From Candidatus Ruthia sp. Cpac_8_S14 (GTDB taxonomy: Bacteria > Pseudomonadota > Gammaproteobacteria > PS1 > Pseudothioglobaceae): a stretch of 64,000 nt of DNA. Positions 7,312 to 19,009 of the stretch are shown piece after piece (positions within the stretch are counted from its first letter, which is position 1; each line of letters starts with the position of its first letter). The notes under the pieces were generated by a model. It ran no database searches, was not told where the DNA came from, and was given only the letters and a program-made list of their open reading frames with translations. A program made the position numbers and the translations under genes. The stretch spans positions 959,380 to 1,023,379 of the forward strand of contig CP072533.1 of NCBI GenBank assembly GCA_021730205.1, in the 5' to 3' direction.

Positions 7312-8193
7312 ATGGATAATTCAATACTCATTGATCAATTTTTAGACAACTACTGGCTTTCATCAGGCGCTAGCAAGAATACGCTATCGGCTTATCGCTC
7401 TGATCTTAATTTATTTTCAAAATGGATCAATAAGTCACTCACTAATATTAGTGATACACATATTAATCAATATTTTAATGAGCGCCAATCAATATCTATG
7501 AGTGCCGCCACACAAGCCAGAATACTCACCTGTTTACGTATTTTCTACCAATACTTAATTAAACAAAGAATCATTAAAAAAAATCCGACTGATAAATTAC
7601 ACCATCCTAAACAAGCGCAAAAACTACCCGTTTTTTTAAATATTAATGAGGTCGAAAGACTGCTTAATGCACCCGATCATAACACTATTTTTGGCCTGCG
7701 CGACCAAGCTATGTTAGAGCTCTTATACGCTTGTGGACTGCGCGTCTCGGAGTTGATTAATCTGAGTTATCATCATATTAATCTGGCTGATGAATATATT
7801 CGCATTCATGGTAAGGGTAATAAAGAACGCCTTTTACCAATGGGTGAAATGGCAATGGATTGTTTAACAAATTACGAAAAAAATGCAAGGCCATTTTTAT
7901 TAAGGAACGGCCAAACTGATGGTTACTTTCTAACCAATCGTGGCACTAATATGAGCCGACAAAATTTCTTTTATATCATTAGAGGCTACGCATTCAAAGC
8001 AGGTATTAATAAACCCTTATCACCACATACACTGCGTCATGCTTTTGCCACACACCTTGTACAAGAGGGGGCAGACTTACGTAGTGTACAATTAATGCTT
8101 GGGCATAGTGACATTTCTAGCACACAAATCTACACCCACATTCAAAATACCCAGCTTAAATCACAACATAGCAAGCACCATCCCAGAGGATAG
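7312..8193 (+). CDS. xerD: Site-specific tyrosine recombinase XerD
   Basis: 293 residues. With XerC it resolves chromosome dimers at dif. All six catalytic residues are present: Arg144 (CGLRVSEL), Lys168 (GKGNKE), His239 and Arg242 (SPHTLRHAFATH), His265 (LGHSD) and nucleophile Tyr274 (TQIYTH). An N-terminal SAM-like domain occupies residues 1-90. The C-terminal SKHHPRG tail resembles the XerD ending, which favours XerD over XerC. The gene is intact in a strongly reduced genome, consistent with a circular chromosome that still needs dimer resolution. Confidence 0.93.
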   Translation: MDNSILIDQFLDNYWLSSGASKNTLSAYRSDLNLFSKWINKSLTNISDTHINQYFNERQSISMSAATQARILTCLRIFYQYLIKQRIIKKNPTDKLHHPKQAQKLPVFLNINEVERLLNAPDHNTIFGLRDQAMLELLYACGLRVSELINLSYHHINLADEYIRIHGKGNKERLLPMGEMAMDCLTNYEKNARPFLLRNGQTDGYFLTNRGTNMSRQNFFYIIRGYAFKAGINKPLSPHTLRHAFATHLVQEGADLRSVQLMLGHSDISSTQIYTHIQNTQLKSQHSKHHPRG

Positions 8194-14894: not shown

Positions 14895-15164
14895 ATGAAG
14901 ATAACCGTTAACAATATCAAATGTGGTGGTTGTGCAGGCATTATTACTAAAAAATTAACAACAACTTTTGATGCCGAAAATATTGATATCAATATTGAAC
15001 AAGGCATTATAAATCTTGACGTAGACGATGCTAAAAAAGCCGAAGTTGTCAAAGCTCTACTAAATCTTGGCTATCCTGAAATCGATTCAGTCCATGGCTT
15101 TAATTCTGCCAAAGCCAAAGCAAAATCCTTTGTTTCTTGTGCTATTGGCAAAATTGACACATGA
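14895..15164 (+). CDS. Small heavy-metal-associated domain protein
   Basis: 89 residues with a single ferredoxin-like HMA fold. The metal-binding motif is CGGC at Cys10-Cys13, close to the CxxC of copper chaperones. A second part (residues 70-89) is lysine/alanine-rich and holds another cysteine. It probably binds copper or a related soft metal, but no metal transporter is adjacent. Its stop overlaps the thiS start by four bases (ATGA), so the two are co-translated. The coupling to thiS is unusual and its meaning is unknown. Confidence 0.75.
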   Translation: MKITVNNIKCGGCAGIITKKLTTTFDAENIDINIEQGIINLDVDDAKKAEVVKALLNLGYPEIDSVHGFNSAKAKAKSFVSCAIGKIDT

Positions 15165-15361
15165 CACTCATCCTAAATGGTGAGTTGCTAAAATTAGCTG
15201 ATAATTTAAACGCACATGATTTGATTGTTCAACTGGGTTATGAAAATCAACGCATTGCGCTAGAAGTCAACGAGGCCATTATTTCCAAATCCAAACATGC
15301 TGAATTTACCCTAAACGAAGGTGATATTTGTGAGATTATTAAAGCAGTGGGTGGTGGGTAA
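15161..15361 (+). CDS. thiS: Sulfur carrier protein ThiS
   Basis: 66 residues with the ubiquitin-like fold length and the required C-terminal Gly-Gly (AVGGG), which is adenylated by ThiF and thiocarboxylated to donate sulfur to the thiazole of thiamine. The usual partner thiG does not follow. Downstream is a 2.6 kb field of broken toxin-antitoxin genes. The last 25 bases of thiS are echoed twice in that field. Other ubiquitin-like sulfur carriers (MoaD-type) are possible but the short length and AVGGG end favour ThiS. Confidence 0.85.
   Translation: MTLILNGELLKLADNLNAHDLIVQLGYENQRIALEVNEAIISKSKHAEFTLNEGDICEIIKAVGGG
15337..15361 (+). repeat. thiS-end direct repeat, copy 1 (inside thiS)
   Basis: The last 25 bases of thiS, reading TATTAAAGCAGTGGGTGGTG and then GGTAA. 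Copies 2 and 3 lie in the same orientation at 15887 and 16595. Such a gene-end copy is what integration into the 3' end of a gene can leave behind, but this is inference. Confidence 0.6.
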
Positions 15362-15377
15362 ATACCGTGAATTTCGC

Positions 15378-15780
15378 CTAAGTCCGACTTAAATGTGCTT
15401 TTAACTCATACATATCAATATCATCATTTAATAGCTTATCAGTCAAGCTTGACAACAACCCGCTACGAGTGGTTTTTAACCTTTTGGCATAGATGTCCAA
15501 GTTGTTAATTCTAACTTTGGTTATCGAAATATTGATTCTTCTAGTTTTATTTAAACCTTCAGGTTTTGGAATAATATTTTTATTTTTGAGTGCAACATCA
15601 AGATAGTATTTAAAAGGACTTTTTCACATCTGTAATTGCCTCACCTTTGCTGCTGCCATCACCCATAACACCGTTAATATCTTTATAATAAGAAAAATAT
15701 CCGCCACCATTTTGCTCATTTAAATTTGTGATAATAATGTCATAATCGATTGCTAAGTAATAGTCTTTATCTTTAATCAT
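15378..15780 (-). pseudogene. hicB: HicB-family antitoxin, frameshifted
   Basis: The translated frame starts MIKDKDYYLAIDYDI and carries the HicB signature GGGYFSYYKDINGVMGDG then SSKGEA, followed by KSPFKYYLDVALKNKNIIP and a DNA-binding tail rich in LNKTRRINISI. One extra A in a poly-A tract near 15624 breaks the frame. The span of 403 bases is one over a multiple of three, and removing that A restores the whole protein of about 133 residues. Its ATG overlaps the stop of the upstream HicA-like frame as ATGA, the classic hicAB layout. Confidence 0.7.
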
Positions 15781-15983
15781 TTTTCACTCTCCAATATTGC
15801 CAATACTTTTTTCACATAAATAATTTTAATTGGGCGTTTGAACGGAATAGTGATTAATAATTTATAACTACTATTAAGATTGTAACTATTAAAGCAGTGA
15901 GTGGCGATTAAACCCTTACCACTTACGTCCAAATATGCACTTTCTCTATATAGGAGTGAAAAAAATAAGAAAAAAGGTAGCAC
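15777..15983 (-). pseudogene. hicA: HicA-like toxin remnant
   Basis: The C-terminal 30 residues read KLLITIPFKRPIKIIYVKKV and then LAIL, matching the end of HicA mRNA interferases (strand plus final helix). The expected N-terminal double-stranded-RNA-binding part with the GSHH-type catalytic histidine is not recognisable, although HC at the middle may be its trace. The gene precedes hicB with a four-base overlap. Probably inactive. Confidence 0.5.
15887..15911 (+). repeat. thiS-end direct repeat, copy 2
   Basis: TATTAAAGCAGTGAGTGGCG followed by ATTAA. It matches the 3' end of thiS at 19 of the first 20-22 positions and would encode IKAVSGD plus a stop. It lies just upstream of the HicAB remnant, 550 bases after copy 1. 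Confidence 0.55.
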
Positions 15984-15991
15984 CCTAATCC

Positions 15992-16276
15992 TTAGCTATT
16001 AACCCAATCTTCCCTTTGGGATCTAACTCTAATTATCAATATATTATTCCTGGCATCAACAAGATAAATAATTAAATGCGATTGAAATGAATAAATTCTA
16101 ACAAGTGGGTTGATTTCAAATCTTTTCTGAGCCAGCTTTGGTTTCTATTCAATACATCAGATAATAATGCATAATATTATTGCGCTTGTTTAACACCAAA
16201 CTCTCTAACACCCTCAATGAAAATTGTAATAATATCATTTTCGGCTTTGGAAGAAAGTGCATAATTCACAACTATC
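15992..16276 (-). pseudogene. parE: ParE-family toxin remnant
   Basis: Read across frames the minus strand gives ALSSKAENDIITIFIEGVRE, then KQAQ, stop, YYALLSDV, and at the end LVDARNNILIIRVRSQREDW. This is the RelE/ParE fold order with its C-terminal IIRVRSQRED strand intact. A TAA stop replaces the residue after KQAQ, and one or two frameshifts follow. It lies directly downstream of a ParD remnant, as in parDE operons. Confidence 0.6.
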
Positions 16277-16506
16277 TTAAAGTGCCTTGAGTTCGGCTTG
16301 TGACAATTCTTGCATAGTTCGAGAACTGATTCCACTTTCAAGGCCTTCAGTTACCATGGCTTGCATTTATTGAATTTTAGCATTAGTGTCTTGGTCTTTT
16401 CTAATCAAGTCGCGAATATAGTCACTGATATTGGCATATTTGCCAGAGTTTTGTGCTTGAGAAATTCCACCCAACTTTTCATTTCAAGAGGTAACGATAC
16501 ATTCAT
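16277..16506 (-). pseudogene. parD: ParD-family antitoxin remnant
   Basis: Starts MNVSLPLEMKSWV, then after a frameshift reads GKYANISDYIRDLIRKDQD, the ribbon-helix-helix ParD signature, and ends SGISSRTMQELSQAELKAL. An internal TAA (after AKIQ) and at least one frameshift in 230 bases (not a multiple of three) show it is dead. The ParE remnant follows immediately. Confidence 0.6.
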
Positions 16507-16594
16507 TGTTGTCGTAACAACCTCTTTTTTTTTTAATATTAGCATATATTGCCAAAAAAAGATATTTTACAAACAAAGGTGGTATAATTAAGGC

Positions 16595-16619
16595 TATTAA
16601 AGCAATGAGTGGCGGATAA
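16595..16619 (+). repeat. thiS-end direct repeat, copy 3
   Basis: TATTAAAGCAATGAGTGGCG followed by GATAA. It would encode IKAMSGG plus a stop, closely like the ThiS C-terminus. It lies just upstream of the ParDE remnant, 708 bases after copy 2. Copies 2 and 3 resemble each other more than either resembles copy 1. Confidence 0.55.
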
Positions 16620-16662
16620 TCTTTTTATCCTAGCTATTTTGATATCAGAAAAAGTAAATCAA

Positions 16663-16830
16663 TCACTCAGAGTGTTTGATCTCGTCGCTTAATTTGCTGT
16701 CTATTCCTGCTCTAAAATCTTCCATAATTGATTGCCTAGTAATTTCTCCCACATTTTTTAAAATAACAGTTACTCTATGTGTGAAAAATAACGACAATAA
16801 ACTTAAACTACTAAAAAATAACGCTATCAC
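16663..16830 (-). other. Unrecognised relic frame (hydrophobic N-part, basic C-part)
   Basis: An uninterrupted but startless minus-strand frame reads a hydrophobic stretch (VIALFFSSLSLLSLFF) and then KNVGEITRQSIMEDFRAG and KLSDEIKHSE before a TGA. No family was recognised. Given its position between the ParDE and MazEF-like remnants it may be the tail of another small accessory gene. Confidence 0.25.
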
Positions 16831-17290
16831 AAATTATCATCAACACTTTGGCCTGCCATTGGTATACTTGGCTGAGAAAGTGGCGTAACCCTAGTTACAC
16901 TTTTTGTGCTTTGAATACTCATATTATGAGTAAGTACAATGTCTTCAAAACGGTAGGGTTCTAATAGATGCGGCAGGGTTTGCTGTGATGAGTAAGTACT
17001 AAGATCAAAGGTGTTGTCAAAGGCAAAGCTCAAACCTGGTTCAATTTTATTAGTGTCTTGAGGAGTATTACGCTGATAATTTGCAAACCAATGTTTGTGT
17101 TTAATGCCTAAAGTGTTAATGTTATTACCACGCTCAAGCTAGTTTAATGCGCTTAGTTTTGTATTAACGCTTGGGTAATAATCTAGAGCAATAGCGTAAA
17201 ATTTTTCATTGTCTCTAAATTCATAAGAACCTTTACCTGCCTTAATGCTAGTATCAATCGTGCCGATATCCGTTTTTATTCTTTTGGCAA
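16827..17290 (-). pseudogene. Unidentified protein remnant, possibly beta-barrel
   Basis: Two open stretches in the same frame are split by a TAG near 17138. The first reads KTDIGTIDTSIKAGKGSYEF and YAIALDYYPSVNTKLSALN. The second starts LERGNNINTLGIKHKHWFAN and continues to 16827. Alternating polar and hydrophobic residues (YAIALDYY) suggest outer-membrane strands, but no family could be named. The C-terminal part is rich in Ser, Thr and Pro and does not end in the usual aromatic residue. Confidence 0.35.
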
Positions 17291-17292
17291 GT

Positions 17293-17617
17293 TCAATAAT
17301 CAAGTCTGGTTATTTCATTTTTACCAAGCCTAGTTAGCATATTTAAGGTGAGTTTGTTGGTATCAATTGCACGAATATAACCACAAATGACATCTGAATC
17401 ATATTCTAATTAATCTTGTTGTTTAACCCTAAAACGAAAAAAAGTATCATTCTCTAGATGTGTTGTTAATGGCAAAACACTAACAGCTGGATGCTTGATA
17501 TTGTTTAATTCGTTAGATTGAATCACTAAGACTGGGCGAATTTTGCCAATTTCAGCACTTTTACTAGGGATTGGGATTAGTTAGATAAATCTCGCCTCTT
17601 GCAAAAATCTTATTCAT
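17293..17617 (-). pseudogene. mazF: MazF/PemK-family toxin, broken
   Basis: Reads MNKIFARGEIYLTNPNP, then after a one-base shift SKSAEIGKIRPVLVIQSNEL, VSVLPLTTHLEN and further on SDVICGYIRAIDTNKLT. This is the complete MazF order, including the GxIRPVLVIQ strand. The span is 325 bases, one over a multiple of three, and a TAA interrupts after VKQQD. The ATG overlaps the stop of the upstream antitoxin remnant by eight bases, a typical antitoxin-toxin coupling. Confidence 0.7.
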
Positions 17618-17917
17618 TTTTCTTGATTTCCAGTATTGCTTTTTCAATCACCTCATCACTAACCTAGCCTTTAAGTGGCTCTTCTTCCAATCCATCCATT
17701 AACGTGCTATCAGAATCACGCCTCAACCCGATGTCTAAACCTCTAGTTTTAAAAGAGGAATCTTGCATTTGTTTAATGATTTTTTCTTTCAAGTTTTTTT
17801 ATGATAATCCGTAATTGCTTGACGAATCAGTGCACTTTTGGATAGGTGTACCTCTAATGTCATTTTATTGGCTTGATTATAAAAATCGTCTTGGATTTTT
17901 AGGGTGATTGTTTTTAT
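17610..17917 (-). pseudogene. Ribbon-helix-helix antitoxin remnant (partner of mazF)
   Basis: Reads KTITLKIQDDFYNQ, then LSKSALIRQAITDYHKK, an RHH DNA-binding domain. After a two-base shift it continues LKEKIIKQMQDSSF, and a C-terminal toxin-binding tail ends VIEKAILEIKKNE. The likely start codon has decayed to ATA at 17917, and a TAG interrupts after PLKG. Together with the following MazF frame it forms a dead toxin-antitoxin pair. Confidence 0.6.
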
Positions 17918-17962
17918 AATACTTCTAGTAATTAAAAAAACAATACTATTAAATACTTTTTA

Positions 17963-19009
17963 TTAAACCATCCACTCTTTTTGGATTTCATCAGCAGAAA
18001 ACGGTTTAACGCTTAATTGTTGTACCACGTCAACATTGAGTTTAACCTCCACATTAACTAACTTTTCTTCTCTACCTTGGGAGTAGCGTGCTAGTATTTT
18101 AGCGGCAATTTGCAAGTCTTCTTGATTTGGCTCACCATCAATTAATGCCAAAGGACCATTACAACTGGTCGGATACAAATTGGCATATTGATTACGATAG
18201 CCTTCTAGGAATTTAACTTCGCTTTCTTCACGGGCAACAATCATTTTAAAATATGGGTTTGGGCGAATGTGTCTGCCAACCTTGAGCATCATTAAATCAT
18301 CCAGTTGATAATCACGATTGCCACGCGATTGCCACATATCGACCAGTTTATCTGAATATTGTTTATCGGTTAGAAAACAACAACCGCCTGCCGGGGTGGC
18401 GTAATCATTAAAACCATATTCTTTTGCTAAAGCCATTTGTGGTTTACGTGTACGCCCTGAAAAATCCAGTAATTTTTCTCTGTCCACCCAACCTTCAAGT
18501 TCTGCTTTGGCGGCTGGTAAATGTTTTGCGCATAAGGGTCTTAGGAGTAGATCATTTGCATTTGATTCTGCTTGGACAATGGGCATGATCTCGCGGCGCT
18601 GTGACATGGGACGTTGACCCATAACTTCGCCTGTAATAATAAAGTCAAATTCATGCTCAACCATCCACTCTTTGGCTTTTTTGACCATAAAGCTCTTGCA
18701 ATCTAGACATGGATTCATATTTTTTCCATAACCATGCTTAGGGTTTAAAAGGACATCACGATATTCTTCAATCACATCAATAATATGTAATTTAATACCC
18801 AACTGCTCTGCTACCCATAAAGCATTGTTACGTTTTGGTTTGTCTTTTTTTTGCTTACGAATAGCGTGCGTATGTCCTTCCACACAAAAGCCAGTAAAAA
18901 AATTAATGCCTTCTACATGAATGTCTTGATTCAGTATTAATTTAGTACTTAATAGCGAGTCTAATCCACCTGAGATTAACGATATAGCTTTAATTTGTTT
19001 GTTTGTCAT
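17963..19009 (-). CDS. PP-loop (AANH) ATPase, tRNA-thiolation-like
   Basis: 348 residues. The N-terminal PP-loop SGGLDS at 13-18 binds ATP for adenylating a substrate, as in MnmA and ThiI. A CxxC (Cys101, Cys104) and a CC pair (Cys210, 211 in TPAGGCCFL) could carry sulfur. It resembles annotated MnmA/TrmU-like proteins but differs from the true MnmA layout, so no gene symbol is given. The start overlaps the stop of the broken prmA by four bases. A DsrC/TusE-like gene is close by on the other strand, hinting at sulfur transfer to tRNA. Confidence 0.7.
   Translation of the reverse strand: MTNKQIKAISLISGGLDSLLSTKLILNQDIHVEGINFFTGFCVEGHTHAIRKQKKDKPKRNNALWVAEQLGIKLHIIDVIEEYRDVLLNPKHGYGKNMNPCLDCKSFMVKKAKEWMVEHEFDFIITGEVMGQRPMSQRREIMPIVQAESNANDLLLRPLCAKHLPAAKAELEGWVDREKLLDFSGRTRKPQMALAKEYGFNDYATPAGGCCFLTDKQYSDKLVDMWQSRGNRDYQLDDLMMLKVGRHIRPNPYFKMIVAREESEVKFLEGYRNQYANLYPTSCNGPLALIDGEPNQEDLQIAAKILARYSQGREEKLVNVEVKLNVDVVQQLSVKPFSADEIQKEWMV

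Follow-up and report, generated by a model that had tools for sequence, protein, structure and literature searches.

Remnants of three toxin-antitoxin modules beside thiS in a Candidatus Ruthia genome suggest repeated insertion at the thiS 3' end

Toxin-antitoxin (TA) modules are common cargo of integrons. On Acinetobacter plasmids, dif modules are flanked by pdif (XerC/XerD) sites and often carry TA genes (PMC6449649). Integrative elements that enter at the 3' end of a tRNA or protein-coding gene leave their target intact, place a copy of its tail at the far end of the insert (the attL/attR direct repeats) and reuse the site. We describe here a locus that resembles each of these systems in part, located downstream of thiS, a vitamin-B1 gene, in Candidatus Ruthia sp. 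Cpac_8_S14. We consider it probable, at roughly two chances in three, that repeated insertion at the thiS 3' end built up, in this interval, a stack of TA modules that has since decayed.

Remnants between thiS and its convergent neighbour

The window, that is, the whole stretch of 64,000 nt that was analyzed (contig CP072533.1, positions 959,380 to 1,023,379), comes from a genome consisting of a single contig of 1.18 Mb. In it, 2,601 nt without any intact gene separate thiS (15161-15361, plus strand; PF02597, 2.1e-12) from a convergent gene, here called up (17963-19009, minus strand), which encodes a ThiI/MnmA-like protein with an NFACT-R_2 domain (PF18297, 3.6e-34; PF02568, 1.5e-10). Both genes are intact, and synteny around the interval is otherwise undisturbed (carA-hma-thiS-gap-up-alaS). 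As carB, carA, up and alaS are long, intact frames (neighbouring frames of 348, 386, 866 and 1069 aa), the disruptions in the gap reflect decay rather than poor sequence.

The interval contains the remnants of three TA modules, all on the minus strand and all broken. Remnants were placed by tblastn with proteins of relatives, and family matches were obtained either from the window itself or from intact copies in these relatives. Nearest to thiS is a HicB antitoxin remnant (15378-15780), which matches PF15919 above cut-off (1.2e-7) across a frameshift near 15615 and aligns at 15456-15705 with HicB of Candidatus Ruthia sp. Plio_17_S18 (G009), a member of the same genus, which also includes two Ruthturnera genomes (G007 and G003). 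It is followed by a HicA toxin stub (15780-15854) that retains the last 25 codons only, with 92% identity to the C-terminus of HicA in G010; the latter protein matches PF07927 at 5e-6, slightly short of the cut-off. The HicB and HicA domains of a HicAB operon are thus both present, as remnants.

Next come a ParE toxin remnant (15995-16272) and a ParD antitoxin remnant (16280-16512), each with a frame change and a stop. They align with the intact ParE (71-79%) and ParD (82-83%) of a Bathymodiolus heckerae symbiont (G098), whose proteins match PF05016 (1.7e-13) and TIGR02606 (1.6e-15), respectively; over the ParDE region, nucleotide identity to G098 is 80% across 591 nt. The order expected of ParDE, an RHH antitoxin and then its toxin, is preserved in the window, as it is in the intact orthologous pair. 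Farthest from thiS lies a MazF/PemK toxin remnant (17299-17614), which has a stop and an N-terminal frame change, lacks its C-terminal 11 or so residues and continues into another remnant. It aligns at 17299-17568 with MazF of the mussel symbiont G031 (E 2.8e-41), itself a match to PF02452 (4.9e-24). The RHH antitoxin of this pair (17607-17917) is frameshifted with stops, and aligns at 17622-17917 with the RHH proteins of G031 and G014 (PF01402, 7e-6 in G031). Here too a DNA-binding antitoxin precedes a PemK/MazF domain, and pairs of this kind are intact in G031, G083 and G098.

The segment between ParD and MazF (16620-17303) is not TA. It matches two fragments of uncharacterized proteins in G011, at 62-79% amino-acid identity over 16778-17303 (minus strand), a stretch for which a Pfam search gave no confident match.

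An original prediction, made from the window's letters, had read this interval as HicAB, ParDE and RHH-MazF pairs in tandem, all in one orientation and all broken by shifts and stops. Its families, orientation and mode of breakage hold up: HicB, HicA, ParE, ParD, MazF and RHH all find their family in the window or in intact relatives, HicA just under cut-off. HicA, though, is truncated rather than frameshifted, and the tandem is interrupted by the roughly 0.7 kb of non-TA remnant that parts ParDE from MazF. The prediction also overlooked that the thiS 3' end recurs twice in degenerate form, once at the HicBA-ParDE boundary and once at the boundary between ParDE and the next segment.

Displaced thiS ends and the same site in relatives

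The first of these copies, rep2 (15878-15911, plus strand), corresponds to the D1 repeat and has an ortholog in G009. It gives three 19-mer matches where 0.03 are expected and, with an nhmmer E-value of 0.012, is weak by itself. The second, rep3 (16571-16619, plus strand, with homology possibly starting as early as 16566), is 76% identical to thiS over 49 nt, has an nhmmer E-value of 0.005 and reaches a score attained in none of 1,000 dinucleotide shuffles. The shuffles average 22.4 and never exceed 40.5, compared with 47.0 for the best match to the thiS tail in the window gap. Copies in G009 (45.0) and G007 (47.5) likewise exceed every shuffle, and the same shuffle-scored scan found no comparable same-strand copy in 12 other gaps. 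When a profile HMM of 33 thiS tails was run over 20 gaps, its top four matches were the G009 and G007 copies and the two window copies (E 0.0005 to 0.012). The ends of 49 long ORFs in the window were also scored; apart from thiS, none that is a true gene end scores as high, and the next best tail copy (38.5) lies inside carB. A wider scan that included shorter ORFs yielded a few other repeats. Two further candidates were rejected: a third decayed thiS copy beside the window ParE was not significant, and a second HicB cassette downstream of rep2 did not align better than shuffles. A search of viral contigs for the thiS-end motif returned no match.

Copies are not found everywhere. The MazEF-up junctions never contain one, nor do the junctions of G098, which indicates that some insertions differ or that copies have decayed. 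Lengths vary from about 33 to 70 nt, which argues against one fixed crossover point, although decay may explain the variation.

The same interval reaches 3.8 kb in bivalve symbionts and holds different modules in different relatives. Gaps above 400 nt come from G098 and from two genera, Ruthia/Ruthturnera and the one containing Thiodubiliella; elsewhere, the gaps examined measure 0-251 nt. In G030, G013, G023, G020, G084, G087 and G089, thiS and up abut without insert, and these abutting stops likely represent the ancestral empty site. Three pairs of less and more filled sites bear directly on the copies. The thiS gene of G011 joins directly the sequence that in the window comes after rep3: window positions 16571-16747 correspond to G011 1772-1947 at 82%. 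Of this G011 stretch, 1772-1820 form the end of thiS, so that window 16620-16747 (strand not assigned) matches what directly follows the thiS stop codon there. Downstream of thiS, G006 has an intact RelE-like toxin and an antitoxin; G009 has this same thiS-end and toxin junction some 500 nt further out, behind HicBA (G009 2520-2606 and G006 1707-1795, 88.8% over 89 nt). Finally, thiS abuts MazF directly in G031, G083 and G014, and in G007, paired here with G031, a short spacer and another copy of the thiS tail separate the two genes. Each pair is what insertion beside thiS, with displacement of the old tail, would predict.

In G098, the gap contains a hicB remnant, intact ParDE, an HTH gene and intact MazEF before up, in the same order as in the window. 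The idea that a TA hot spot or cassette stack once existed here thus gains support from the variety of modules among relatives, from this intact ParDE and MazEF order (hicB being a remnant there as well) and from the thiS ends displaced at successive insertions. Two other suggestions of the original prediction fare badly. An island end finds no support, as no integrase lies in any gap and synteny is unbroken on both sides. Nor is there support for a loss of selective value in the symbiotic state: the mussel symbionts G098, G031 and G083 have intact modules, and Thioglobus genomes such as G023 have no insert. Filling is thus a trait of some bivalve-symbiont lineages and decay is lineage-specific; as the mussel symbionts G084, G087 and G089 are also empty, symbiosis alone is not decisive for filling.

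Homologous HicBA and ParDE modules occur at unrelated loci in relatives, and none with a thiS tail was found there. The modules are therefore not tied to thiS, and the hot spot is the thiS end. Nor is the site exclusive to TA modules, since genes for large secreted proteins of the Lcl_C/DUF1566 type are found in the thiS-up gap of G085 and G088, as well as of G009, in place of or beside them. We also observed, in G030, two ParE-type genes within about 2 kb (128968-130989), possibly another TA cluster, though the thiS site of this genome is empty. In G014, a repeat of about 190 bp with inverted ends (CCCTAATCCAAA...TTTGGATTAGGG), 95% identical at L111 1026-1215 and L047 2933-3123, adjoins both HicBA and, at the thiS locus, MazEF. 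It is probably a MITE, and we set it aside as unrelated. A suspected tRNA tail duplication beside the G014 HicBA was likewise dismissed, the locus having two full tRNA-Glu genes on one side rather than a flanking repeat.

The C-terminus of ThiS falls into two classes, 'DICEII' and 'D(K/I/R/Q)(I/V)EII'. The former is carried by the window, G006, G010 and G011, and also by the distant G031, G035, G084, G087, G089 and G021; the DVCEII tail of G009 is a close variant, and G001-G005, G007 and G008 have the other class. Cross-genus DICEII pairs are more alike over the last 60 nt or so than mixed pairs (third positions, 0.650 vs 0.544; 17 of 2,000 label permutations reach this), a test of modest strength that leaves out the class codons and covers 32 genomes, selected in part because of the inserts they contain. 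Upstream of these 60 nt, which in the window form the proposed insertion target, both kinds of pairs are equally unlike; thiS is a mosaic between allele classes. At the class codons, rep3 has ATAATT. A single change separates this from ATAATC and AAAATT, which belong to the other class, compared with three changes for ATTTGT. The resident tail belongs to an allele class common to several genera, and rep3 carries the other, likely native class. This pattern fits an insertion that brought a foreign tail with it and displaced the native one.

Proposed layered insertion and its alternatives

We propose that thiS originally abutted the convergent up gene. The layer next to up is MazEF; the unidentified segment, ParDE and HicBA would have entered later, next to thiS. 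At least some of these entries would have brought a new thiS 3' end and shifted the old one (about 30 to 65 nt) downstream, so that ThiS and its terminal GGG would be kept intact. The modules would afterwards have decayed by frameshifts, stops and deletions. We infer from the copies and the paired sites that tails were displaced when DNA entered at thiS, and not through a duplication to which unrelated insertions were added later; the direction, repetition and order of events we infer likewise. Inheritance has not been simply vertical: the window and G009 share a hicA truncation junction (window 15846-15895; L036 2423-2473), whereas hicA is nearly full-length in G010, the closer relative judging by the genes on either side. 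The locus has probably been rearranged by recombination between lineages.

The machinery may be short-homology recombination or a recombinase acting in trans, both compatible with layered insertion. Under the first, for which our confidence is tentative, incoming DNA carrying thiS and TA genes would recombine once within thiS, or within sequence shared upstream of it, and once at a microhomology, so that part of the recipient's thiS tail would stay behind. Variable copy length and the mosaic thiS agree with this, as does an intact recA in the window's genome and in all relatives of its genus that hold recognizable modules; recA was not detected in five reduced genomes, and its loss is reported for two vesicomyid symbionts (PMC3202245). 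This route requires, however, that right-hand crossovers fell several times, independently, within the final 70 nt or so of thiS.

Site-specific integration, which we judge rather unlikely, would involve circular TA cassettes with a thiS-tail attachment site, inserted by Xer or by an integrase since lost, in the manner of elements at tRNA 3' ends. It would account for the restored target gene, the reuse of one site and the swapped 3' allele class, as well as for the direct repeats of the tail, which are seen as rep2, rep3 and the G009 and G007 copies though not at every junction. The genome encodes intact XerC-type recombinases, one of them 7 kb away (window 7312-8193). Against this mechanism stand the variable copy lengths, the HicBA and ParDE families at loci without a thiS tail and the lack of any integrase gene, or other recombinase gene, in the gaps. 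A likely chromosomal dif site, TTCGCATAATTTATATTATGTTAA, was observed in the window's own genome at G000:C1:463198-463221, with one mismatch to the pattern used; there is a single match per genome in six genomes.

That unrelated insertions struck a convergent intergenic gap by chance, the thiS-like copies being coincidences or local tandem duplications, is improbable. Some junctions indeed lack copies and rep2 alone is weak, but the shuffles, the profile HMM and the comparisons of unfilled and filled sites all argue otherwise; moreover, the G007 spacer between thiS and the copy differs from the sequence 3' of the copy, which excludes a simple tandem duplication.

Integron gene cassettes using the thiS end as a secondary target are most improbable, and we rejected this origin: integron-type integrases exceed the curated cut-off in G098, G011, G007, G031, G083, G003 and G035, and decayed traces are present in the window's own genome (262033-262580), yet a strict, home-made attC scanner found no site in 17 gaps and no array beside the integrases, cassette insertion should not duplicate 30-65 nt of target, and G003 has an integrase but only a 48-nt gap. 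No IntI gene with attI adjoins thiS, the IntI genes being distant and, at the loci examined, solitary. Integrases above the NCBIfam cut-off were located at G098:C13:9295-10245, G011:C1:1259488-1260441, G007:C50:13063-14016, G031:C1:1184600-1185544, G003:C1:1146394-1147347 and G035:C121:247-1200. At the two loci whose ORFs were examined (G098 and G007), the integrase stands alone beside other genes and no attC was found.

To return to layered insertion, the displaced gene tails would act as a time stamp that gives the order in which modules arrived, and they suggest that TA pairs build up in successive layers at a single protected gene end, in a locus whose metabolic gene is itself a mosaic, with a tail that seems to have been swapped. 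A broader proposition, which we regard as speculative and unlikely, is that bivalve symbionts of the SUP05 clade have a true recombination site in the thiS 3' end, where integrase-less TA cassettes would enter and leave by tail exchange, forming an integron-like stack and carrying foreign thiS tails from one genus to another. Should a recombinase be responsible, this would be a capture system for small cassettes built on a housekeeping gene; if none is, the locus still illustrates the arrival of TA modules in symbiont genomes and their decay there.

Comparison with known systems

The window remnants share family matches and gene order with the HicAB, ParDE and MazEF/PemIK type II TA modules; they differ in that all copies are pseudogenes, every TA frame in the window being interrupted, so that no functional TA system is present. 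As with integrative elements at gene 3' ends, the target is intact, a copy of its tail lies at the far end and the site is reused; here, however, the units are TA modules of about 0.5-0.7 kb without integrase, the target is thiS and copy length varies. Compared to integron cassette arrays (for example, PMC11551772), we find a similar stack of small modules with newcomers at one end, but no detected attC, no adjacent integrase and repeats that derive from thiS. The Acinetobacter plasmid dif modules (PMC6449649) are likewise small modules parted by short repeats resembling recombination sites, whereas the locus described here is chromosomal, lacks a demonstrated Xer site and has as its repeats direct copies of the end of a coding gene.
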